From: a bacterium
Lineage (GTDB): Bacteria; Bacteroidota; Ignavibacteria; Kapaibacteriales; UBA7675
NCBI GenBank assembly: GCA_030430495.1
Contig: JAUIKM010000041.1
Location: 1 to 52,061, forward strand
Direction of reading: 5' to 3'
Length of the DNA stretch: 52,061 nucleotides
Shown: in pieces, positions 4,031 through 39,018 of the stretch
Layout: the number at the start of each line of letters is the position of its first letter
Position numbering within the stretch: position 1 is the stretch's first letter
Translations under genes and position numbers: made by a program
Notes under the pieces: model-generated
The model's database searches: none
The model's input: only the letters and a program-made list of their open reading frames with translations
What the model was told of the DNA's origin: nothing

Positions 4031-5500
4031 TTATTCGCGCATGAGCGCTTCAATTTCATCAGCCCGGCGCGGAAGGTCGGCGGAAAGAATTTCAACTCCG
4101 TCGTCGGTAATCAGCACATTGTCTTCCACGCGGATGCCAATATTCCACCAGCGTTCGTCGCAGGGGCTGCCCTGCGGCACGTAGATTCCCGGTTCGACGG
4201 TAAACACAAACCCGGGTTTGAGCCAGGAGGAGGAACTCACGTCGTGCACGTCCAGCCCCAGCCTGTGTGAGACGCCGTGCGGAAAGTACCAGCCCACCTC
4301 GTCAAACGTGCGCGTCACGCCCAACCGCAGCAGTCCATTGCCCAGCACGCGTCTGCAGGTCGTGAACAGTTCGCTCCACGGCATGCCCGGGCGGCAGAGC
4401 GCAAAGACGCTGTCCTGCGCCTCCAGCACCAGGTCGTAGAGTTGGCGCTGCTCCGGACTGAATGTGCCGTTGACGGGGAAAGTGCGCGTGATATCGGCCG
4501 TGTATCCGCAGAACTCCGCGCCGCAGTCCATCAGCACCAGGTCGCCGTCCCTGGTCTGCCGCCTGTTGTCGATGTAGTGCAGGATGCAGGCGTTCGATCC
4601 GCTGCCGACGATGGAGGGATAACCGACGGCCTGCGCGCCCTGCATAAAAAAGGCGCTTTCCATGATGGTTTCCAGCTGGTACTCCCACATGCCCGGCTCC
4701 GCGCGGCGCAGCGTCTGGCGAAAACCTTCCAGGGTGCGGTCGATGGCGTTGTGCAGCAGGACCACTTCCTCCGGACCCTTGATTTCGCGCATGGCGTTGA
4801 TTTCCTCGCGCAGACTGCGCAGTCGAACATGCGGGTATTTGGCGTCGAAGTAGTCGCGCACCTGGTTTTCCAGGTAAGTGCGGCTCAGAAACAGCGGGTT
4901 TTGGATGAATTTGGTGGGCCACTGCGAGACGTAGGCGGTTTTCACCCGGGCCAGCAGGCGAGACATAAATTCACCGTATCCGTCCAGTGATGCGGTGTGC
5001 ACGCCGTAGGCGTCGGACGCCTCCTGGCGGTCGAGAGTCGGGCCGTGCCACAGCGCATCGCGCGGATCCTGCTCTCTGACAAAAAGCAGTTCGTCGACCG
5101 GGTCGCCGTCCGCCTGGGCGGCGATGCCGTTTTTGATCAGGACCAGCACCATACCGGGTGCGTCGGCCCCGGTCAGGTAGAGCATGTCGCTGCTCTGGCG
5201 GTACTCAAAATCGACGTCGTTCTGTCGGTTGCGCACGTCCGCGCTGAAAAAGAATGCGGCCGAGCTGTCGCTCATCTGTTCCAGCAGCAGGGCGCGTCGG
5301 GCGGCGTAGACGCTCACGGGCACGCCGCAGGATTCGCGCTCGACGGTATACCTGACGTCGGGCGGCTGGGCGACGAGCTGCGGCGCCGCGGCCGCCGGGC
5401 AGAGGCACATCAGCATCAGGCGGGCGAACAGTGAGCGGAATACTGTGCCGCGGCTGCGGCGCGCGAGGACTTGTTGGTTCTGCGTCTTCAAACGTGTCAT
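4031..5500 (-). CDS. pepP: Exported Xaa-Pro aminopeptidase (M24B, aminopeptidase P type)
   Basis: 489 residues. Residues 1-45 look like a signal peptide: a basic start, a hydrophobic stretch at 22-44, then a site near VAQ. This implies a periplasmic or secreted form. The N-terminal aminopeptidase P domain spans about 60-225 and the M24 'pita-bread' domain about 230-489. All five dimetal ligands can be read: Asp325 (LMDCGAEF), Asp336 (TADITRTF), His412 (PHGVSHRLGLDVHD), Glu436 (TVEPGIYVP) and Glu459 (IRVEDNVLIT). The enzyme removes N-terminal residues preceding proline and usually needs Mn2+. An AGGTGG ribosome binding site precedes the start. It is divergent from pfkA. The symbol is by family; the exported form may carry another name. 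Confidence 0.93.
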   Translation of the reverse strand: MTRLKTQNQQVLARRSRGTVFRSLFARLMLMCLCPAAAAPQLVAQPPDVRYTVERESCGVPVSVYAARRALLLEQMSDSSAAFFFSADVRNRQNDVDFEYRQSSDMLYLTGADAPGMVLVLIKNGIAAQADGDPVDELLFVREQDPRDALWHGPTLDRQEASDAYGVHTASLDGYGEFMSRLLARVKTAYVSQWPTKFIQNPLFLSRTYLENQVRDYFDAKYPHVRLRSLREEINAMREIKGPEEVVLLHNAIDRTLEGFRQTLRRAEPGMWEYQLETIMESAFFMQGAQAVGYPSIVGSGSNACILHYIDNRRQTRDGDLVLMDCGAEFCGYTADITRTFPVNGTFSPEQRQLYDLVLEAQDSVFALCRPGMPWSELFTTCRRVLGNGLLRLGVTRTFDEVGWYFPHGVSHRLGLDVHDVSSSSWLKPGFVFTVEPGIYVPQGSPCDERWWNIGIRVEDNVLITDDGVEILSADLPRRADEIEALMRE

Positions 5501-5627
5501 GCTTTTTCCACCTGCTCAAATTTCTGTAATTTTCGCCGTCAACTTGCTCTGTCGCGTGCCTGCGGGCACGAGCTTCCAGATGCGGAAACTGTTCCGCCGG
5601 GGGCATTTGCAAACGAACACGGCGGCC

Positions 5628-6593
5628 ATGAGCTCCAAAAGAATAGTCATAATCACCAGCGGCGGCGATGCGCCCGGCATGAACGCGTTTATCCGCGCCG
5701 CCTGCCGCGCCGCGCTGCACGAAGGCTGGGACGTGTACGGCGGCCGCCGCGGCTACGAAGGACTGATCAACGACGATTTTGTGCCGCTGGACCGCGCCGC
5801 AACGGCCAACCGGATAGCGCGCGGCGGCACCTTCCTGGGCACGGCGCGCTCCATGGAGTTTTTCAAGCCTGAAGGCCGCGCCAAAGCCGCTGCAAATTTA
5901 CACAAACGCGGCATCGACGCCCTTATAGCCTGCGGCGGCGACGGCACCTTCCGCGGCGCGGAACTGCTGCAGGCCGAACACGGCATCCAGGTGGTCGGCG
6001 CGCCGGGCACGATCGACAACGACCTCGTCGGCTGCGACTACACCATCGGCTACGATACCGCGGTCAACACGGCGGCGGAAGCCATCGACCGCATTCGCGA
6101 CACGGCGGAATCGCACGGCCGCACCTTCTTCGTCGAAGTGATGGGCCGCCACGCCGGCAGCATCGCGATGGACGTCGGCGTCGCCTGCGGCGCGGAATTT
6201 ATCGCCGTGCCGGAGACGGTCACCAACCTGGCGGAAGTGTGCGCCCACATGCACCGCAAAGGACCGCAAAAACGGTTCATCGGCGTTATCGGCGAAGGCG
6301 ACGAGGAAGGCGACGCCACGATGATTGCCGCCAAAATGAAGGAAACGTACGGCATCGAGGTCAAGGTAACGATCCTGGGCCACATCCAGCGCGGCGGCTC
6401 GCCGACGGTACGCGACCGCATTCTTGCCTCCCGGCTCGGAGTGGCGGCCGTGGAAGCGGTCCGCAACGGGGCAAGCAATATAATGGTGGGAGAAGTCGGC
6501 AGCAGCATCGTACACACGCCGCTGGCGGAAACTTTCGGAACGCACAAACCCATCCGTCCCGGTATATTGCAGCTTGCAGAAATATTGACCTGA
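5628..6593 (+). CDS. pfkA: ATP-dependent 6-phosphofructokinase
   Basis: 321 residues, the standard length of bacterial PfkA. It phosphorylates fructose 6-phosphate to the 1,6-bisphosphate in the cytoplasm. Visible motifs are the N-terminal SGGDAPGMNA, GGDGTF (103-108), PGTIDND with catalytic Asp130, MGRHAG and HIQRGGSPTVRDR. Glycine in GGDG and in GTIDND, instead of the GGDD/KTIDND of pyrophosphate enzymes, argues for ATP as donor. The ATG at 5628 is chosen because the frame extends 61 codons upstream without homology and across the divergent pepP start. It heads a run with nadK (28 bp away) and pyk. Confidence 0.96.
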   Translation: MSSKRIVIITSGGDAPGMNAFIRAACRAALHEGWDVYGGRRGYEGLINDDFVPLDRAATANRIARGGTFLGTARSMEFFKPEGRAKAAANLHKRGIDALIACGGDGTFRGAELLQAEHGIQVVGAPGTIDNDLVGCDYTIGYDTAVNTAAEAIDRIRDTAESHGRTFFVEVMGRHAGSIAMDVGVACGAEFIAVPETVTNLAEVCAHMHRKGPQKRFIGVIGEGDEEGDATMIAAKMKETYGIEVKVTILGHIQRGGSPTVRDRILASRLGVAAVEAVRNGASNIMVGEVGSSIVHTPLAETFGTHKPIRPGILQLAEILT

Positions 6594-28743: not shown

Positions 28744-30384
28744 TCAGAACAGCCAGCTCACGCCGGCGCGCGCAAAAATTTCGCGCTCTTTGTAGTCGCG
28801 CCAAATGTAAATATTCTGTCCAAGCAAATTGCTGAAACTGACGTCGATCGAAAAGTTCGGCTGCACTATGATACGCGAATGCAGGCCAAGGTCAAAAAAT
28901 GCGTCCACTCTGCTGCTGTCCGCCAGATCGGCCTGGCGCTCGCCCACGAACAACGCTTTGACGCCTACCTGCACACTTTCACCGAACACATGCGCCAGCT
29001 CGGTCTGCAACATCAGCGGGGCCGCGTAGGGAATTCCGCCGTTTTCGCCGTCGAGCGATGTCGCCAGCATGTCGAGCTTGCCGCTGAGCGAGGTCTTTTC
29101 GCTCAAGTGCCAGAGTACTTCGGCCTTGCCGCTCAGCCGCGTTCCATCGCGGAACACGGTCGTAAATGTCGCGGTTGAAGTCGGCTCAAATGCCCCGGCG
29201 TCGTTGAGTACTTCCGCCCCGATGCCAAACAAAAGAGCAAGCCGTGGATGCGGATGGTAAATCATGTTCAGGTCCACCCCGGCGACGACGTATTCAAAGG
29301 CCACGTCGGCATCGGCGTCAACATAGGGGTTTTCACGCCAAAGTCCATGGAAATCGCGACGTTGCAGGCCGCTCTTCAGCTCACCGCGCAGCGAAAGCGA
29401 TTCGCTCAGTTCCAGCTCTCCGCCCGCGCGCAGACGCGGCGCAAATGTCGACTCGCCGCGCGTGTCGCTGCCGACGTCGAATCCCAGTTCGCTCGTGAGC
29501 GTGAGCGCTGAATCGCGCAGATCGCCGGTCAGCGCCAGGGTCATCAGGCTCAGGCTATTGGAGTTCAGACTCTGGATATTGATGTCCGCCAGTCCGCCGA
29601 GCTGAAAACCATCGCCGCTGCGTCGCAGACGCAGGTAGCCGTCCAGCCCGAAGTGATCAGCGTCGCGCGCGCCGCCCAGCGAGAGCACATCCATGCCGAA
29701 GCCGAGATTAAAATCCATTCCGCCGGACGAGCCATGTGTGTCGACGTCAAAATCGACAAGCGTCACGCCGCGCGCTTCAGCAGAGTCAAGCGCATAGAGA
29801 TTGTAGTCCTGGCGCTCGATGTTCAGGTTCGCGACAGTGCGGCTTCCGCCGAAGATCCAGAATTTTTGCGGCGCAACATAGTCGGAGCGCAGCCCGGCGT
29901 GAATGCGACTGTAGCCCGCGTCGTCCACGTGCCCATTGCTCAGTTGCAGGCCTCCGCGGGCATAGAGCGAATATCCGTCCAGCTGGGCGCTCAGCCCGGC
30001 CAGCACATCCGCCGTAAGGTACATGCCCAGCGAGCCCTGCAAAAACCCTTTCCAGGGCGACTGCTCGGTGGACAACATTGGCAGGGCGGCCGGCGGCATA
30101 AGCGGCGGCGCCAGTTTTTCGAGTGAGTTGAGCTGGTCGAGTTCGCGTTGCTGCAGGCGTGGAATCGAACGCGGCGCGGCTTTGCGGCCGCCGCGGATCG
30201 AGAGACTCTCGCGGCCTCTGATGATAATTTCCGGTAGCTGCAGCGGCTGCTGTTCGTTCTCTTTTTTGCTTCCGCTTTCCTGCGCGGACAGGTCCGCCAC
30301 AGACAGCAGCGCACAGAGCGACAGCAGTAAAACCAGGCGGCGCGGAGTGCGCGGCGCGAAGGCAATTGTAAGAGCGTGTTTCAT
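28744..30384 (-). CDS. Outer-membrane beta-barrel protein (TonB-dependent-receptor-like)
   Basis: 546 residues; signal peptide to about 35 (ending LSAQ). Its ATG overlaps the TGA of the TPR gene (ATGA, 30381-30384), indicating translational coupling. After the signal, LQLPEIIIRGRESLSI resembles the short plug-start or TonB-box-like segment seen before receptor barrels, although no full plug domain is present. From about 110 on there are alternating beta segments, and the protein closes NLLGQNIYIWRDYKEREIF...SWLF, which matches the last strands of TonB-dependent receptors. The presence of a TonB-like gene in the same operon suggests they interact (inference). Confidence 0.78.
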   Translation of the reverse strand: MKHALTIAFAPRTPRRLVLLLSLCALLSVADLSAQESGSKKENEQQPLQLPEIIIRGRESLSIRGGRKAAPRSIPRLQQRELDQLNSLEKLAPPLMPPAALPMLSTEQSPWKGFLQGSLGMYLTADVLAGLSAQLDGYSLYARGGLQLSNGHVDDAGYSRIHAGLRSDYVAPQKFWIFGGSRTVANLNIERQDYNLYALDSAEARGVTLVDFDVDTHGSSGGMDFNLGFGMDVLSLGGARDADHFGLDGYLRLRRSGDGFQLGGLADINIQSLNSNSLSLMTLALTGDLRDSALTLTSELGFDVGSDTRGESTFAPRLRAGGELELSESLSLRGELKSGLQRRDFHGLWRENPYVDADADVAFEYVVAGVDLNMIYHPHPRLALLFGIGAEVLNDAGAFEPTSTATFTTVFRDGTRLSGKAEVLWHLSEKTSLSGKLDMLATSLDGENGGIPYAAPLMLQTELAHVFGESVQVGVKALFVGERQADLADSSRVDAFFDLGLHSRIIVQPNFSIDVSFSNLLGQNIYIWRDYKEREIFARAGVSWLF

Positions 30385-33300
30385 CGTCTGCGCTCCAGAG
30401 ATTTTTGCAGCCGTTCGATGTTGGCGTTGGCGGTTTGTGCGTATTCGTTGTCGGCTCCCAGCGCCGCGACCAGCCGGAACGTTTCCAGCGCTCCGTCGAT
30501 GTCTTCGAGTTTTTCCAGGCTCCAGGCCAGAATCAGCAGTGCTTCGGAGCGGTAGGGCTCAAATTCGGGAAAACGCTCGCGCACGACGATGGCCGCGTCC
30601 CTGGCCGCCTCGTAGTTTTCCTGCCAGTACCAGGCCTGCGCCACGCGGTACTGGGCTTCCGCGCCCAGCTCGTCGTCGCGCTCAGCCACCTGGCTGAACT
30701 GCACGCGCGCCGAGTCGTATTCCTTGCGCCGCATGTGGTACACGCCGACGCGAAAGCGGCTGCGGTCGCCGTAGTAACTGCCGCGGTATTCATCCGCCAC
30801 GGACAGAAAAGCACTCAGCGCGGACGCGGTATCGGAACGCGAGAGGCGCAGCATGGCCTGCTCAAAACCGGCCTGCACGGCGGCATCGCTCTCCGGAAAA
30901 CGCGAGCGCGTCAGGCCCAGCAGGGAGTCCGCCGCATCGGCTTCGTTGAGGCGCATGGTCGTCATAGCCAGATCAAAAGAAGCCTGCGGCGCGATGTCGT
31001 GCTCGGGATAACCGTTGACCACGCGGCGGAAGGCGTCGAGCGCCAGGCGGTACTGCTCCAGATCTTCCTCGGTCTCGCCGAGGCTCACATAACTTTTGCC
31101 CATGTAATAGAGCGCTTCGGGCACGCGCTCACTGTCGGGATGATCTTCGACGTAGCGTCGATAACTTTCGACCGGATTCGACTCGGTGCGCTGCCAGAAT
31201 CCGCGGTCGGGGCTGAACAGCTCTTCCTCAACCAGCGGCGAGCCCGGATTGAGGGCAAAAAACTGCGCACGCACGTTTTTGGCTTCTTCCTCGCGACCCA
31301 ACAGCGTCAGACAGTATTCCATATTGTTGAGTGCGGAGCCGATCAGCGAACTGCCGGGATAGGCGTCGACAATCTCACTGTACACTCCGAGCGCAAGTTC
31401 GTACTGGCCCAGGTTGTAGTAGGCGTCGGCCACGGCGTGATGCGCGCTCTGGAACTTGGGCGAATCGCTGTAGGTCTGCATCAGACGCCGCATTTCCGCG
31501 ATCGACTCCTCAAAGCGGTTGCTTTCAAACAACATCCAGCCGACGGAATACAGCGCTTCCGGCGCGAGGCTGGAACGCGGAAACTCTTTGAGGAAGTTGC
31601 GCAGCTCGGCAATGGCCTGGTCGTAGCGGCGCAGGCGGTAGAGCGACTGTCCGAGTTGGTAGAGCGCGTACTCGCCCAGCGTCGTTTCCTTGTCGCGCCG
31701 CACCACCTGGCGGTAGGAGTCCGCCGCGGCGGAGTAATTGCGGTTGAGGTAGTGAGCATCGCCTTCGCGCACCAGAACGTCGACGGCAAAACGCGTGTCG
31801 GGAAACTCGCGCAGCAGCCGACCAAAGGTCTTGGAGGCGTTGTTAAACTGGCGCGTGCGGAATTGCGTCCAGCCGAGGCCGTAAAATGCTTCTTCGCGGC
31901 GGTCGCTGTTGGGCAGGTTGCGCACGATGTAGTTGTAGGCCTGTTCGGCTTCGTGCATGAGCGTCGCTTTGTAGAAACCCTCGGCCAGCCAGAAACGCGC
32001 CTCGGGAATGCGGTCGTCGCCGGGATGTTCGGCAATGAATTCCTGCAGCTGGGTCGTGGCTTCGCGGCTGGGTTCGTCGCCCGCGCCGTTGCTGGCGCCC
32101 ACCAGCGCAATGCCGCGCTTGAAACGGGCGTCGGCCAGGTAGAGCGCGCGGTCCGGCATGCTGCGTTCGTCGCTGCGCTCAGCTATCTGGATTACCTCGG
32201 AATAGGCCGTGGCCGCGGTTGAATAATAAGCCGCATCCAGCGCCGCCGCGCCGAGCAGCAGGTAGGAACGGGCGCGCGTCACGGCGTCCGGCGCTTCTTT
32301 GACGGCGCGCTCGAGCGTGCGGCGCGCCTGGTCCATCAATCCATCTTCGTAGTGCATCTGCCCCAGCTCCAGCAGGGCCAGCCCCAGGTAGGGGTAATCG
32401 CTGCGCGAAGTCAGAGCGCCCAGTTCGCGCACGGCCGTCTCGCGGTCGCCCTTGCGTTTGAGCGCCAGGACGCGATAGAGGCGCGCCGAGGCGTCGATGG
32501 CCGGCTCGGTTTCTTCGCGGTTCAGCAGCAGATCGTAATATGCGAGCGCGCGGTCGTACTCGCCCATATTGAGCAGGGCCCAGCCCGCTCCCAGTTGCGA
32601 GCGCGTGCGCAGCTCGGTCGAGAGATCGGCGTTGAGCGCCGCTTCGAACGATTCGAGCGCTTGTTTTGAGCGGCCACTGAGGTTGTGCGCTTCGCCGCGC
32701 AGATAGAGCATCTGGGACTCGGCGTCCTCGACGTAACTCTGCGGCTCGAAGCTTGTGGCCGGGCTCGCGCCCTGGCCTTCGAGCGTGCGAATCACCGTTC
32801 CGGCGCTCTCGAGTTCTTCGAGCGCGGGCGTCGGTTTGCGCAGGGAGATGTAATTCTGTGCGGCGTGAATGTGCGCTCCGACGCGCGTGTTGCGCCGCGG
32901 ATAGTCTTTTGTTATGCGATCGTAGAGCGTGAGAGCTTCTTCCAGGCGGCGGGTGCGTTCGGCAAACTGCGCCAGAAAGTAGAGTGCGTCGTCCGCGTAT
33001 TCGTAGGTCGGATAGGAATCGGCGCAGCGCGCCAGCGGCGCTTCGGCCATTCGGTCGTCGCCCGAGAGCGCGTAGGAAATGCCGCTCCAGAACAGACCGG
33101 CAGATGCAAAGGGCGTATAACTTGTGTCGCGGCGGCGCATGGCGTCGACCTCGGCCTGGTCGGCCGCAGCCTGAAACGACTGCGCGGCGGAAATGTAGTC
33201 GCCCTGATCAAAGTAGAGCAGCGATTTGGCGCTGAGAGCGTGCGCGCGCCAGGGCGAGTTATTGCGCGTTGCGAGCAATTCGTCGAAGCGCTCGTGCGCG

Positions 33301-33569
33301 TCGCGAAACTCGCCGGCTTCGATGTGGTTCAGCGCCAGGTTGTAGAGCGCCTCGTCGCGCGCCGGGGAGACAGGACGCTCGCGCAGCAGGCGACGCAGCA
33401 TTCGCGCCGCTTCCAGGCGCAGCCCGGCTTCGTCCAGCGCCGCGGCATGCTGCAGGTCTTCCACCGCGGACTGCGAATGCGGCAAGTTTGCAACCTGTCC
33501 GGCGGCGGGCGCTGCGGCGCACAACAGCCCCAACAGCATGGCCGGAATCAAGGCCGACGTCAGTTTCAT
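30381..33569 (-). CDS. Large periplasmic TPR protein
   Basis: 1062 residues; signal peptide 1-25 (ending PAAGQ). The ATG at 33569 follows GGAAGAG; the frame upstream lacks such a signal. The rest is almost wholly tetratricopeptide repeats of about 35 residues, with many units of the form 'AxYxLGxxxYxxGxYxxAIxxFxxFLxxYPxSxxxxxAxY', the style of BamD/CpoB (YbgF)-type periplasmic scaffolds. Examples are YALYQLGQSLYRLRRYDQAI and SAHHAVADAYYNLGQYELAL. First gene of the envelope operon and coupled to the barrel gene, so it probably acts as a scaffold for an outer-membrane assembly (inference). Confidence 0.9.
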   Translation of the reverse strand: MKLTSALIPAMLLGLLCAAAPAAGQVANLPHSQSAVEDLQHAAALDEAGLRLEAARMLRRLLRERPVSPARDEALYNLALNHIEAGEFRDAHERFDELLATRNNSPWRAHALSAKSLLYFDQGDYISAAQSFQAAADQAEVDAMRRRDTSYTPFASAGLFWSGISYALSGDDRMAEAPLARCADSYPTYEYADDALYFLAQFAERTRRLEEALTLYDRITKDYPRRNTRVGAHIHAAQNYISLRKPTPALEELESAGTVIRTLEGQGASPATSFEPQSYVEDAESQMLYLRGEAHNLSGRSKQALESFEAALNADLSTELRTRSQLGAGWALLNMGEYDRALAYYDLLLNREETEPAIDASARLYRVLALKRKGDRETAVRELGALTSRSDYPYLGLALLELGQMHYEDGLMDQARRTLERAVKEAPDAVTRARSYLLLGAAALDAAYYSTAATAYSEVIQIAERSDERSMPDRALYLADARFKRGIALVGASNGAGDEPSREATTQLQEFIAEHPGDDRIPEARFWLAEGFYKATLMHEAEQAYNYIVRNLPNSDRREEAFYGLGWTQFRTRQFNNASKTFGRLLREFPDTRFAVDVLVREGDAHYLNRNYSAAADSYRQVVRRDKETTLGEYALYQLGQSLYRLRRYDQAIAELRNFLKEFPRSSLAPEALYSVGWMLFESNRFEESIAEMRRLMQTYSDSPKFQSAHHAVADAYYNLGQYELALGVYSEIVDAYPGSSLIGSALNNMEYCLTLLGREEEAKNVRAQFFALNPGSPLVEEELFSPDRGFWQRTESNPVESYRRYVEDHPDSERVPEALYYMGKSYVSLGETEEDLEQYRLALDAFRRVVNGYPEHDIAPQASFDLAMTTMRLNEADAADSLLGLTRSRFPESDAAVQAGFEQAMLRLSRSDTASALSAFLSVADEYRGSYYGDRSRFRVGVYHMRRKEYDSARVQFSQVAERDDELGAEAQYRVAQAWYWQENYEAARDAAIVVRERFPEFEPYRSEALLILAWSLEKLEDIDGALETFRLVAALGADNEYAQTANANIERLQKSLERRR

Positions 33570-33671
33570 TCTCTTCCACTCTGAATGCAACAATGCACCG
33601 TTCCTTCCCATACGGTCCATGGAGCCTAAATTAAGAAAAAATACAACACGCACCGGAAAGCGTTTTCGGCC

Positions 33672-34988: not shown

Positions 34989-35408
34989 TCAATCCTTGTC
35001 GGTGGGGCGCAGAATCTCGCGCAAAAGGTCGTCGCGGTGATTTTCGCGCACGACGCGGTGCAGCGTTTCGAGGTGGTCGTTGAGGAAGGCGATGTTGTAC
35101 ATGAGTGAGATGATTTCCTGGCGTTCGGCGGAGTCGATACGGACGTCCTGCAGGATGTCGCGGCGTTTGAAGTTGAGGTATTCGCGGAAGCCGGACTGCG
35201 CCACGTCGAAGCGATAGTGTTCCACCTCGTGCAGGAATTCGTCAAAGTACCTCAGGCCGACCTGGATGGGATCGGTAAAGTCGTCCAGGTGTTCGTTCAG
35301 CGATTCCAGCAGAATCTGGGCGTACTTGAAGGGATGATGCGATTTCAGGTACAGTTCGCCGCCGAGACGGGCCAGCCCGGGAATGTGCTCCGAATGATGC
35401 GATAACAT
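34989..35408 (-). CDS. Small helical protein of unknown function
   Basis: 139 residues from the ATG at 35408, which has AGAGGA in position; the 63 codons further upstream lie inside the preceding gene. Predicted mostly helical and soluble, with no signal peptide or membrane helix: YAQILLESLNEHLDDF, YFDEFLHEVEHYRF, EIISLMYNIAFLNDH. Several His are present but in no known metal motif. It starts only 4 bases past the stop of the 35413-37125 gene, so the two are almost certainly translated from one message and may act together. Not recognised. Confidence 0.78.
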   Translation of the reverse strand: MLSHHSEHIPGLARLGGELYLKSHHPFKYAQILLESLNEHLDDFTDPIQVGLRYFDEFLHEVEHYRFDVAQSGFREYLNFKRRDILQDVRIDSAERQEIISLMYNIAFLNDHLETLHRVVRENHRDDLLREILRPTDKD

Positions 35409-35412
35409 GAAA

Positions 35413-37125
35413 TCAGTTCCTCTGTTGCAAAAGTGTGGTTTGACAATTCGCCGATTGACCGGAACGTGCTGCGGACGCGTCCGCGCTGCCCGGACCGCCC
35501 GGCTCCGAGGGCCGCTCCGGCGCACGCGTGCCGCTTTCCTCGCCGCGCGCATGCACGCGCACGAACCAGCCTTCGCGGTCGATAGCCTGCAACTCACGCA
35601 TCACCAGCGTCCAGAGGTGTTCGTAGGGAATCACCTCCACGCCGTCGATGGCGCCGTCGTACAGCGGTTTGATGGCAGCAAGCCGGTCCAGATGTTTGCC
35701 GGCGCGGCGCTGGATATCCGCCGCGTCAAAGTTGCGGTACAGCACGGTCAGCAGAAGCCGCACAAAACAGTGACTGCGCGCGTGCGAGCGCTGACGCAGC
35801 CAGGTGCTGTTGTAGGTCTCGAGAATCGCTGCGCGATCCAGTAATGCATCGAATTCCCGATAACGCAGCAGGAACAAAAAGTGTGCAATCGTGATTGCGA
35901 CGTTATAACCGCGTTTATCCCGTGAAAATACGGGTAAGTCATTCACAAAGCCATAAATGTTGAACTTTTTGGCAAAGAGACTTTCAGGCTCGGGGATGTC
36001 GATGCGCCCGGCTTCACAGGCAAAACGCAGATAGGCTTCAAAAATCCGCCATTTTTCGAGTCGCTGCGGGTAGGCCGCCAGCTGACGGCGGCGCGCGGTG
36101 GCGCAGCGGTAGACCTCGGCCGCGGCGCGGTATTCACCTGCGTGCATCTCCAGCAGGAAGTTCAGTTCCAGCAGCGCAAACCAGTTGTAGTCGCCCTCCG
36201 TCAGCTCGCGGAGGCTCTCGCGCACATGCCGCCGACCGCGCTCGTATTTGCGCAAAAAGAGGCAGCAGTAGAGGCGCGTGAGGTGCAGTTCCGCGCGGCG
36301 CGCATTGCTGCTGTGCCCGCCGGCCGCCAGCCAGGCGTCGAACTCGTCGCAGACGCGCAGCACGCCGGCGTAGTCCTGCACAATCTCGTGTTCCAGCAGG
36401 TGCAGGCGGTGGCAGTACATGCGCAGCGTGTACGAGCTGTGGCGGCGGCGCTGCATTTCCAGCCGGCGGCGGTACTCACGCGCTTCGCGCGCCAGCGAAA
36501 AATCCGGCGCCGCGGAACGCGAAAAACGCACAATAATGGACTCGGCCATTTCGCGCGCTTCCACCTCCGCGCCGTCTACCTCCAGGCAGCTGTTGATTTC
36601 GCGCGTCAGGGACTCAAAGCGCTCTTCGTCGCCGTCGAGCGCGGCGCGGCGGCGCAGGACGTTGCCGGCGCAGACCGCGATGCGCCACAGTTCGTGTTTG
36701 CGCGCTTCGCGGCGCAGGGAGGCGGCCAGCGCCTCGGCCGCAACATGTGCGCCGCAGCGCTGCAACAGGTTTACAACCAGGCGCCGGCGCTCGCAGCGAT
36801 AGATGGCGCGGCCGCGGTCCGAGAGCGGAAAGCGGCGCACGTCGAGGAAGAGCAGCATGCGCTGGGCGTGGCGCATCACCTCGCTCTTGAGCGTGATGTA
36901 AGGCCGCGCGGTCGGCGCGTCGTCGTAGATCAGCGCAGCGGCGCGGGCATCCAGCTCGCGCGCGTCGTCGGGGGCCGGCCCGGGCTGCGTTTCGGCCGCA
37001 TCGGCCGCGGCAAATCGAAAGAGCTGCGCGCATTTGGAGCCGGCCGCAAAGAACTGATCCTCGCCGCGGTCGGTCCGCCGGTATCGCGTTACCACTTCGG
37101 CTATATCGCGCAACAACTGCATCAT
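35413..37125 (-). CDS. Helical-repeat protein of unknown function, paralogue A
   Basis: 570 residues from ATG-ATG at 37125 (AAGAG before it); a GTG 12 codons earlier is less likely. No signal peptide. Arg- and Leu-rich, wholly helical, with TPR-like spacing in the middle: LLEHEIVQDYAGVLRVCDEF, LTRLYCCLFLRKYERGRRH, GDYNWFALLELNFLLEMHAG, YRAAAEVYRC. The C-terminal part has VIPYEHLWTLVMRELQA, and the last 45 residues are disordered-looking. Organisation matches the 37471-39018 protein, including GDYNW/GEINW and IPYE/IPFE at equivalent places. No helix-turn-helix or enzyme motif. Function unknown. Confidence 0.8.
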   Translation of the reverse strand: MMQLLRDIAEVVTRYRRTDRGEDQFFAAGSKCAQLFRFAAADAAETQPGPAPDDARELDARAAALIYDDAPTARPYITLKSEVMRHAQRMLLFLDVRRFPLSDRGRAIYRCERRRLVVNLLQRCGAHVAAEALAASLRREARKHELWRIAVCAGNVLRRRAALDGDEERFESLTREINSCLEVDGAEVEAREMAESIIVRFSRSAAPDFSLAREAREYRRRLEMQRRRHSSYTLRMYCHRLHLLEHEIVQDYAGVLRVCDEFDAWLAAGGHSSNARRAELHLTRLYCCLFLRKYERGRRHVRESLRELTEGDYNWFALLELNFLLEMHAGEYRAAAEVYRCATARRRQLAAYPQRLEKWRIFEAYLRFACEAGRIDIPEPESLFAKKFNIYGFVNDLPVFSRDKRGYNVAITIAHFLFLLRYREFDALLDRAAILETYNSTWLRQRSHARSHCFVRLLLTVLYRNFDAADIQRRAGKHLDRLAAIKPLYDGAIDGVEVIPYEHLWTLVMRELQAIDREGWFVRVHARGEESGTRAPERPSEPGGPGSADASAARSGQSANCQTTLLQQRN

Positions 37126-37315
37126 ACTCTTGTTTTCCCCGCTCCAGATTTCATGCGGCACGGCGGCCGGTTGCGGCGCGCCCGGCGACGCTCTGAACGG
37201 CGGGCCGGACGTCCGCGAGTGAACTTACCGCGCCCTGTAAATCGGCATAAATCGCCACGCGCGGCGGCTCGAAATTAGCAGCAAACAAACGTCCAACTTT
37301 ATCCGGAGTCCACGC

Positions 37316-37525
37316 ATGCAAGTGCTGCTTTCCATCCTTCTGTACCTGAGCGTCATCGTAAGCCCGGGCACGTATTACGACATCGAAATCGACGCAATCG
37401 CCCAGCAAAACGAGAGCGAAATCAGCGCCATTCAGGCCGACGCCGACCTCACCCAGCAAATCGTTGAAGACTACCAGGACGACGTCTCGATGATACTGAT
37501 CATCGACTGGGAAACGGAAAAGTGA
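37316..37525 (+). CDS. Small signal-bearing protein between two helical-repeat paralogues
   Basis: 69 residues. GGAG at 37303-37306 with 9-base spacing precedes the ATG, good evidence for translation. The first 17 residues (MQVLLSILLYLSVIVSP) form a short hydrophobic segment, either a signal peptide or a membrane anchor. The remainder is strongly acidic (DIEIDAIAQQNESEISAIQA, IIDWETEK). It is divergent from paralogue A (191 bases apart) and its last 55 bases overlap the 3' end of paralogue B on the other strand. No family recognised; it could be an exported peptide precursor or small membrane protein. Confidence 0.6.
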   Translation: MQVLLSILLYLSVIVSPGTYYDIEIDAIAQQNESEISAIQADADLTQQIVEDYQDDVSMILIIDWETEK

Positions 37526-39018
37526 TCGGGGCGGCCGGAGCTCGCCTCCGGCCGCAAGTCCGCCCGTTTGCCGGGCTGCCGGAGGCGCGCAGCGGCACGA
37601 CGCGGCGTCGCCCGGCGGCAGAAGACTTCAAACGGAATGAGTTCACACTCGTCGCGGCCGGCGGCGTCCGCCAGGGCCGTCAGAGCGCGCCGGCGCAGCA
37701 GTGCAAGGTCGGGCGCGGCGTCGTGCTCCGCCAGGAGGCGCAGCAGCAGTTCGCTGCGCGGCGCGCAGGCGGCCGCGGGCCGCAGGTCAAGCAGATCGAG
37801 GCATCTGCGTCGCAGGCCGGCGTCTGCCGCCGCGGCGGTCAGCCCGACCACTACCAGCAGCGCTGCATCCATCTCCCAGACGGGCATGCCCCGCCTCAGA
37901 CAGGGCAGCGCGGAAAACTCGGCTGCAGGGTCGGGCGGCTTGCCCGTCAGTCCCAGGGCGTTCAGATTGTGTTCCACCAGCGCCCAGCGCGCCGCCAGAC
38001 TCAGCGGCGTCCCGCCGCCCGCGGCTTTGTGCGCGGCACGGGCGCGGCGCAGCAGCCGACCGGCCAGAGCGTAGTCGCCGCGGCGCAAAGCCAGAATTGT
38101 CGTTTGCTGCAGTGCGGCATGCCAGTTGATTTCACCGCGATCACACCGGCGCGCCAACTTCTCCCCCAGGTCAAACGCCCGCTCATCATCGGCACGCACC
38201 AGGCAGTGCAGGCGCAGCAGTTCCACGCGCAACAGATGAGAAGCGGCGACGGGCTGCGTTCCGCCCCGCAGAAAAGCGTGGTAATCCTCACAGAGGCGCA
38301 GGGTCTGCGGCAGGCGGTCCAGCGCCATGGCGGCCTGGATGCGCAGCTGAAACCAGGCGTTTGTCAGCGCGCGGCTGTTGTGAATGCGGCGCAGATCCTC
38401 CAGATTGGCAAAGTAGTGCGAAGCCGCCAGGCCGACGGCGCGACGGCGACGCCCCAGCACGTGGGCGTCCAGCATGTGGCGCTGCACCAACTCGGCGGCG
38501 TAGACCTCGGCGTCGCGCAGGTCGCGGAGGCGGCGCGTCTCTTCACTGTACTGCTCAAAGGCGCGGCGTTCGCCGCTGAGCGCGGCATTCTGGCGCAGGA
38601 GCAGGCTGGTTTCCAGCTGAATCCCGGTGGCTTCCAGCGCGGCGGCGCGGCGGTGCAGGCCGCGGACCAGCGGCATCGCGCTCTCGCGTTTGCCGAGCAG
38701 CACCAGCGTCTTGAGGGCGGCCAGCTGCATGCCGCAGCGATGCAGCTTCCAGGCCGGCGTGCGGCGCAGGGCGCGCCTGGGCCGCAGGAGCAGCAGCACG
38801 TCGATCATTGCTTCCAGAGCGCGACTCCGCAATGTGATGCGCCGCCGCCGCGCCTTGTGCTCCTCATCCGGTGACGCGACTTCGCACTCGGCGGCGGCGC
38901 CCAGCAATGCCGTGCACAACCGCCGCACCTGACGCCCGCCGCGCAACAGCGCGGTCGGGTCGCACTCGCGACTGCGTATCCGGTTAATCGCATCCGCGAT
39001 GCCTTTAAGTGAATACAT
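37471..39018 (-). CDS. Helical-repeat protein of unknown function, paralogue B
   Basis: 515 residues from the ATG at 39018, chosen because MYSLKGIADAINRI lines up with MMQLLRDIAEVVTRY of paralogue A; a TTG 12 codons upstream is the other option. No signal peptide. Arg/Leu/Ala-rich helices with TPR-like periodicity (LRLCEDYHAFLRGG, LRVELLRLHCLVRAD, GEINWHAALQQTTILALRRG, YALAGRLLRRARAAH). ELIPFEVFCRR lies at the place of A's VIPYEHLWTLV. Overall more Arg-rich and more diverged than A. The 3' end overlaps the small plus-strand gene by 55 bases. Function unknown. Confidence 0.75.
   Translation of the reverse strand: MYSLKGIADAINRIRSRECDPTALLRGGRQVRRLCTALLGAAAECEVASPDEEHKARRRRITLRSRALEAMIDVLLLLRPRRALRRTPAWKLHRCGMQLAALKTLVLLGKRESAMPLVRGLHRRAAALEATGIQLETSLLLRQNAALSGERRAFEQYSEETRRLRDLRDAEVYAAELVQRHMLDAHVLGRRRRAVGLAASHYFANLEDLRRIHNSRALTNAWFQLRIQAAMALDRLPQTLRLCEDYHAFLRGGTQPVAASHLLRVELLRLHCLVRADDERAFDLGEKLARRCDRGEINWHAALQQTTILALRRGDYALAGRLLRRARAAHKAAGGGTPLSLAARWALVEHNLNALGLTGKPPDPAAEFSALPCLRRGMPVWEMDAALLVVVGLTAAAADAGLRRRCLDLLDLRPAAACAPRSELLLRLLAEHDAAPDLALLRRRALTALADAAGRDECELIPFEVFCRRATPRRAAARLRQPGKRADLRPEASSGRPDHFSVSQSMISIIETSSW

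Follow-up and report, generated by a model that had tools for sequence, protein, structure and literature searches.

A small acidic protein paired with tetratricopeptide-repeat proteins in Kapaibacterium-related bacteria and its possible role as their ligand

The window analysed here is a stretch of 52,061 nucleotides, a single 52-kb contig (JAUIKM010000041.1, assembly GCA_030430495.1) from a 5.6-Mb draft genome. It carries a short gene, S, divergent to the gene of a tetratricopeptide-repeat (TPR) protein, A, and the relation between these two is the subject of this analysis (Table 1). The original prediction, made from the letters of the window, had placed A, S and two further genes, B and C. 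Checking the sequence bore out these gene calls and their positions and confirmed the good GGAG site ahead of S as well as the coupling of C to A. The gene next after S is the convergent B, and the 3' ends of both genes overlap by 55 bp. No Pfam or NCBIfam model reached its cut-off for A, B, C or S, and sequence searches of Pfam, NCBIfam, PADLOC and PDB assigned none of them to a family, except for a TPR match at profile level.

Table 1. Features around the divergent A and S genes (positions in the window).
Feature	Position	Strand	Description	Evidence
A	35413..37125	-	TPR superhelix protein (570 aa); candidate receptor for S	17-member paralogue family; consensus-TPR profile match; AlphaFold2 model; VIA-align
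S	37316..37525	+	69-aa acidic small protein, hydrophobic leader MQVLLSILLYLSVIVSPGTYY..., proposed ligand of A	hidden Markov model family; 13 copies; pS/pN; pairing tally
GGAG ribosome-binding site of S	37305..37308	+	7 nt upstream of ATG	sequence; upstream regions of 40 homologues
N-terminal helical domain of A (~residues 1-94)	36844..37125	-	suspected helix-turn-helix-like arrangement	homologue domain model; weak fold matches
A/S divergent intergenic region, 190 bp	37126..37315		presumed shared promoter region	sequence
B	37471..39018	-	515 aa, diverged A paralogue without an S of its own; 3' end convergently overlaps S	
C	34989..35408	-	helical, 139 aa, 4 bp behind A; accessory to a single receptor sub-clade	

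S is a conserved protein-coding gene and not a chance open reading frame (ORF). Its own genome contains 13 copies of the family, and of 123 genomes examined in the order, 39 have homologues. In S pairs of about 55–68% amino-acid identity, the proportion of synonymous differences (pS) is 0.65–0.93 versus 0.20–0.36 for non-synonymous differences (pN). The third codon position is the most variable one, synonymous change being saturated and non-synonymous change constrained. Ribosome-binding sites resembling that of S precede most homologues (40 upstream sequences). The prediction of a real small gene is thus supported by its distribution and by the coding-type substitution pattern, and the case considered fatal at the outset, that S is not conserved, does not hold in the relatives.

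A scripted tally with an E-value cut-off of 1e-5 covered 79 S loci, seven of which lie too near a contig end, leaving 72 that could be judged. S is divergent to an A-like protein at 58 of these and to a TPR histidine kinase at 12, and it is co-directional with either at the remaining two; none of the 72 lacks a TPR neighbour. Part of this set was retrieved via the receptor, which biases the count. Loci from a whole-genome search with S only, however, show the same pairing. Of the 13 S genes in the genome of the window, 12 point away from an adjoining A-like gene, while one (L012) lies downstream of such a gene on the same strand, and the copies of both families coincide although they were searched independently. 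When all ORFs near receptors were clustered, S not being used as a query, the S family ranked first (38 loci), and 37 of its 40 members were upstream of and divergent to the receptor. Beyond this order, the pair was found in a second order of the class (G314; receptor E 1.7e-93). S thus has a TPR neighbour at all judgeable loci, and we regard it as nearly certain that S and the TPR protein form a functional unit.

Distances between S proteins correlate with those between their receptors, with a Mantel r of 0.29 for 38 pairs and of 0.56 for the 12 own-genome pairs, values that none of 2000 permutations reached. This correlation does not prove contact, since co-duplication would yield an equal signal. 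Paralogues may duplicate as a unit, and S could then be an ordinary small neighbour kept in this way without any functional tie to A. Such an origin is hardly credible, because paralogues down to about 20–30% identity retain S, whereas related pairs have little in common in their aligned intergenic DNA, and because S is also paired with TPR kinases, which form another protein class. No operator motif was common to the aligned divergent intergenic regions of related pairs, in which the receptor starts are approximate.

A is one of 17 paralogues in its genome. A-like proteins were found in 22 of the 61 genomes of our sample of relatives. Relatives with A-like proteins that bear a name are Candidatus Kapaibacterium sp. 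IP29b_bin.46, Ignavibacteria bacterium UBA7675 and members of Saprospiraceae, Chitinophagales and Reichenbachiella, from which the host of the window is taken to be related to Ca. Kapaibacterium. In a profile search, the A family hits designed consensus TPR proteins (E 3e-7), and the AlphaFold2 model of A is an all-helical superhelix with a mean pLDDT of 85.1. Profile and structure prediction, both proposed beforehand as checks, thus indicate a TPR superhelix. The closest VIA-align matches of the model are LGN (Z 15.6), NprR-NprX (15.1) and RapI (15.1), followed by Rap-CSF (14.7), a phage Rap (14.7) and AimR (14.3), at root-mean-square deviations of 3.8–5.5 Å over about 250–295 residues. Helical repeats readily give such Z values, so the matches indicate the kind of fold rather than membership of a family. 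LGN-type TPRs bind long helical peptides and LGN tops the list. Together with the co-variation, this would suit S as a subunit permanently bound to A or as a partner in its folding, with the hydrophobic helix of S lying in the TPR groove and no signalling involved. We consider such a role improbable in view of the many A-like proteins without S, the divergent and separate transcription, the kinase partner from a different protein class and the presence of several S copies per receptor.

A is predicted to be cytoplasmic, and A-like partners of S are soluble and mostly without predicted membrane segments. The N-terminal domain, folded alone from a homologue of A, reached a pLDDT of 84.9. Its fold matches are weak and mixed (sigma-4, KorB, DnaA-IV, TetR-like; Z 3.5 or less), and a DNA-binding domain in A, with a suspected helix-turn-helix-like arrangement, is weakly indicated by these models.

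In genomes of family f3, S is divergent to proteins of about 740–830 residues with many TPRs, HisKA and HATPase_c (L206, L207, L208, L210, L212, L219, L220, L230, L231, L233, L234, L268). The hydropathy of the full-length kinases reveals one N-terminal segment and a second one ahead of HisKA; therefore, the TPR domain is predicted to be periplasmic. In the S-bearing f3 genomes that were checked (G245, G212, G243 and G059), the query kinase has 11–22 kinase-type matches per genome, the best of which is the S-adjacent kinase, and no A-like protein was found in the f3 genomes within the 61-genome sample. That one small-protein family is connected with TPR sensors of two kinds is the strongest indication of S being sensed by the TPR part. 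The TPR protein probably binds the S product. The kinase partners also bear on the assumption that S acts as a small hydrophobic toxin, or as some other selfish element, for which A would be the antidote. A short hydrophobic protein with tandem copies and many loci per genome would agree with that, but kinase partners and an acidic tail would not. Moreover, PADLOC yielded no anti-phage defence match for six proteins, A has no phage match and receptors outnumber S in the genome (17 vs 13), which makes a toxin very improbable.

In S proteins the hydrophobic leader is conserved, the middle varies, and the acidic C-terminus is specific to the locus. Conservation is highest in the leader, which has the pattern M-[E/D]-x-L-L-x-I-L-x-Y-L: the column entropy of the own-genome paralogues is 1.05 for residues 1–20, 1.78 for residues 21–50 and 2.08 for residues 51–69. 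The median hydropathy of the N-terminal 15 residues is 2.1, and outside the leader S is acidic, with a median net charge of -11 (40 members). At nine loci two or three S genes are arranged in tandem. The tandem copies of L240 show an identity of 0.94 in the first 18 residues and of 0.35 in the middle, and their last 12 residues are all identical. At L082 the middle is 32% identical and both copies end with -DRRED, while the third positions of the last 12 codons are 25% identical; third-position divergence with a retained -DRRED fits selection on the protein. In the DRxED orthologue group, which spans four genera, the identity is 0.49 in the first 15 residues, 0.27 in the middle and 0.79 in the last six. 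For L015/L067 the value of 0.00 obtained over the last 12 residues without gaps stems from an offset and was disregarded. Whether the C-terminal part of S may represent the specific ligand is, on such alignments, an even bet.

A leader conserved in sequence as well as in hydrophobicity, the lack of a basic n-region, the N-terminal hydropathy and the kinase partners would also be expected of a small membrane or membrane-associated modulator that acts on its TPR partner within the producing cell, like MgrB or SafA on PhoQ. The likeness includes the short N-terminal hydrophobic segment and a possible outside location of the C-terminus. Most S partners, however, are soluble TPR proteins, S is very acidic, and tandem amplification with locus-specific C-termini suits a ligand better. 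Such a modulator is therefore unlikely.

In RRNPP systems, a TPR receptor (Rap, Rgg, NprR, PlcR, PrgX or AimR) binds an adjacently encoded propeptide such as Phr, SHP, NprX, PapR or AimP. The best explanation of our data, to which we assign a probability of about 0.6, would be that S encodes the ligand of the adjoining TPR receptor and that both constitute a signalling pair working like RRNPP. In this receptor–ligand pair, S would encode a small protein or a small acidic precursor whose hydrophobic leader is common to the family and whose C-terminal part varies and is specific to the locus. The product of S would be bound by the TPR superhelix of A, probably an intracellular regulator, and would alter the activity of A. 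In f3 genomes the same small-protein family would be read instead by a sensor histidine kinase through a TPR domain predicted to be periplasmic. For this mechanism we infer that binding takes place in the TPR groove, that the C-terminus is the specific part, that export occurs at least in the kinase lineages and that nearby genes are regulated. Release of S as a signal from cell to cell is possible but rated less likely.

A and S resemble RRNPP in that a small gene adjoins that of a TPR receptor, a genome holds many such paralogous pairs, the receptor fold matches those of NprR, Rap and AimR, and the C-terminus of S is locus-specific. Profile and predicted structure give A the multi-repeat superhelix of an RRNPP receptor, and with 69 aa S lies within the 100 aa or less of an adjacent propeptide gene. 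The original prediction counted the divergent gene order against RRNPP. This objection is not upheld, since the genes of Rgg/SHP groups I and II likewise have divergent orientation (PMC13361665). In contrast to RRNPP, the hosts of A and S are related to Kapaibacterium and not Firmicutes, S with its approximately 69 residues is acidic and has no basic n-region, and the ligand family has a sensor kinase as a second partner. A membrane histidine kinase adjoining the small-protein gene, as at the 12 divergent f3 loci, resembles peptide-sensing two-component systems such as ComD/ComE. It differs from them in that the sensor domain is a predicted periplasmic TPR and the ligand family is common to cytoplasmic TPR proteins, and neither a double-glycine leader nor an exporter gene was noticed beside the S locus, without a systematic search. 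The genome encodes five Opp-type binding proteins, which is unspecific.

Several observations weigh against an RRNPP-like ligand. Residues 2–15 of the leader contain 3 Lys/Arg versus 63 Asp/Glu in 73 members, and position 2 is Glu or Asp in 45 of the 73, unlike in Sec signals. With almost no Lys or Arg, the leader is not a canonical Sec signal; the "signal-bearing" S of the original prediction thus retains its hydrophobic N-terminus but loses the canonical signal. No RNPP_C or other RRNPP model was found for A or B, nor among the families listed for 26 relatives. As sequence relation and canonical secretion signal, a hydrophobic stretch without a basic start being present instead, are both missing, A and S are not classed as RRNPP. 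Since A is predicted to be cytoplasmic and the kinase TPR periplasmic, one route would have to serve two compartments, or the systems differ. TPR folds resemble many unrelated proteins, and LGN ranks first for A. C-terminal conservation of S is clear in some groups only, and the last 12 codons of the L240 copies share 97% of their nucleotides, so that recent duplication, exchange or gene conversion is possible there. Finally, 4 of the 17 own-genome A-like receptors have no S, and neither do most A-like proteins of Saprospiraceae and of family f8. Of the peptide–receptor module proposed originally, the TPR receptor with an adjacent small ligand finds good support in pairing, co-variation, fold and kinase partner; a classical exported signal peptide is unsupported.

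Published surveys of RRNPP concern Firmicutes with their phages and plasmids, as well as viruses (PMC10075063). Our literature search, for which most subscription papers were out of reach, found no description of the S or A family. The data suggest that S and its partners belong to a so far unrecognised family of signals, peptides or small proteins, and of receptors for them. A more far-reaching proposal is a new class of ribosomal signal in Kapaibacterium-related bacteria, in which one propeptide family would serve both cytoplasmic TPR regulators and TPR sensor kinases in up to 13 parallel channels per cell, RRNPP-like but outside Firmicutes; we make it tentatively. If true, a largely uncultured bacterial group uses many parallel, genetically encoded small-protein signals, and the partner exchange, with a soluble TPR protein in one case and a TPR sensor kinase in the other, is a natural experiment on ligand recognition by TPR grooves.

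The genes following S offer a candidate output. In several f2 genomes S opens a tight row of genes, in which it directly precedes those for a Cys-rich protein of about 230 residues and a protein of about 750–865 residues, both secreted-looking (L214, L215, L217, L242–L244), "secreted" being based solely on signal-like N-termini. This arrangement suggests that the S–receptor pair may control, or be co-expressed with, surface products as candidate target or cargo. Downstream of the S genes with -DRxED (L082, L086, L216, L223, L236, L237), and in the same orientation, comes a conserved gene of about 125–150 aa (MLxxxPVxNCMHF...PGVVGVL...).

A and B are indeed paralogous, as originally predicted (25% identity over 229 residues, E 6e-11), and the order B-S-A recurs in Ca. 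Kapaibacterium IP29b_bin.46. The flanking of S by the two paralogues is nevertheless incidental: S belongs divergently to A and overlaps B only at the 3' ends. B was rejected as the partner of S, because 70 of the 72 judgeable S loci are divergent to their TPR gene and B falls into the S-less minority. C was likewise rejected as a core part, since it adjoins only one A-like sub-clade, including two members without S. A core role of B or C in the module is thus unsupported. Relatives of C occur only behind the orthologue of A and behind a second receptor pair without S (G000:C80, G002:C186).

Saprospiraceae-type A-like proteins without S (L117–L120, L123, L129–L131, L134–L137, L139, L140, L142, L143) have a fixed neighbourhood with a cytidylate-kinase-like gene downstream and often a conserved 73-aa gene upstream. 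This S-free form may be ancestral. At L225 an A-like gene with an in-frame stop (4283–5851) adjoins an intact S gene. The S-like hits of L227 and L238, which have no TPR neighbour (E ~3e-4), lie outside the cut-off of the tally and were treated as chance matches or remnants. The contigs L211, L223, L232, L239, L240, L241 and L245 end inside or beside S genes, often in tandem S arrays, probably because repeats break assemblies. Near A and S, the window also contains a 1090-aa ORF (30381–33653) with many TPR-like repeats and a signal-like N-terminus.

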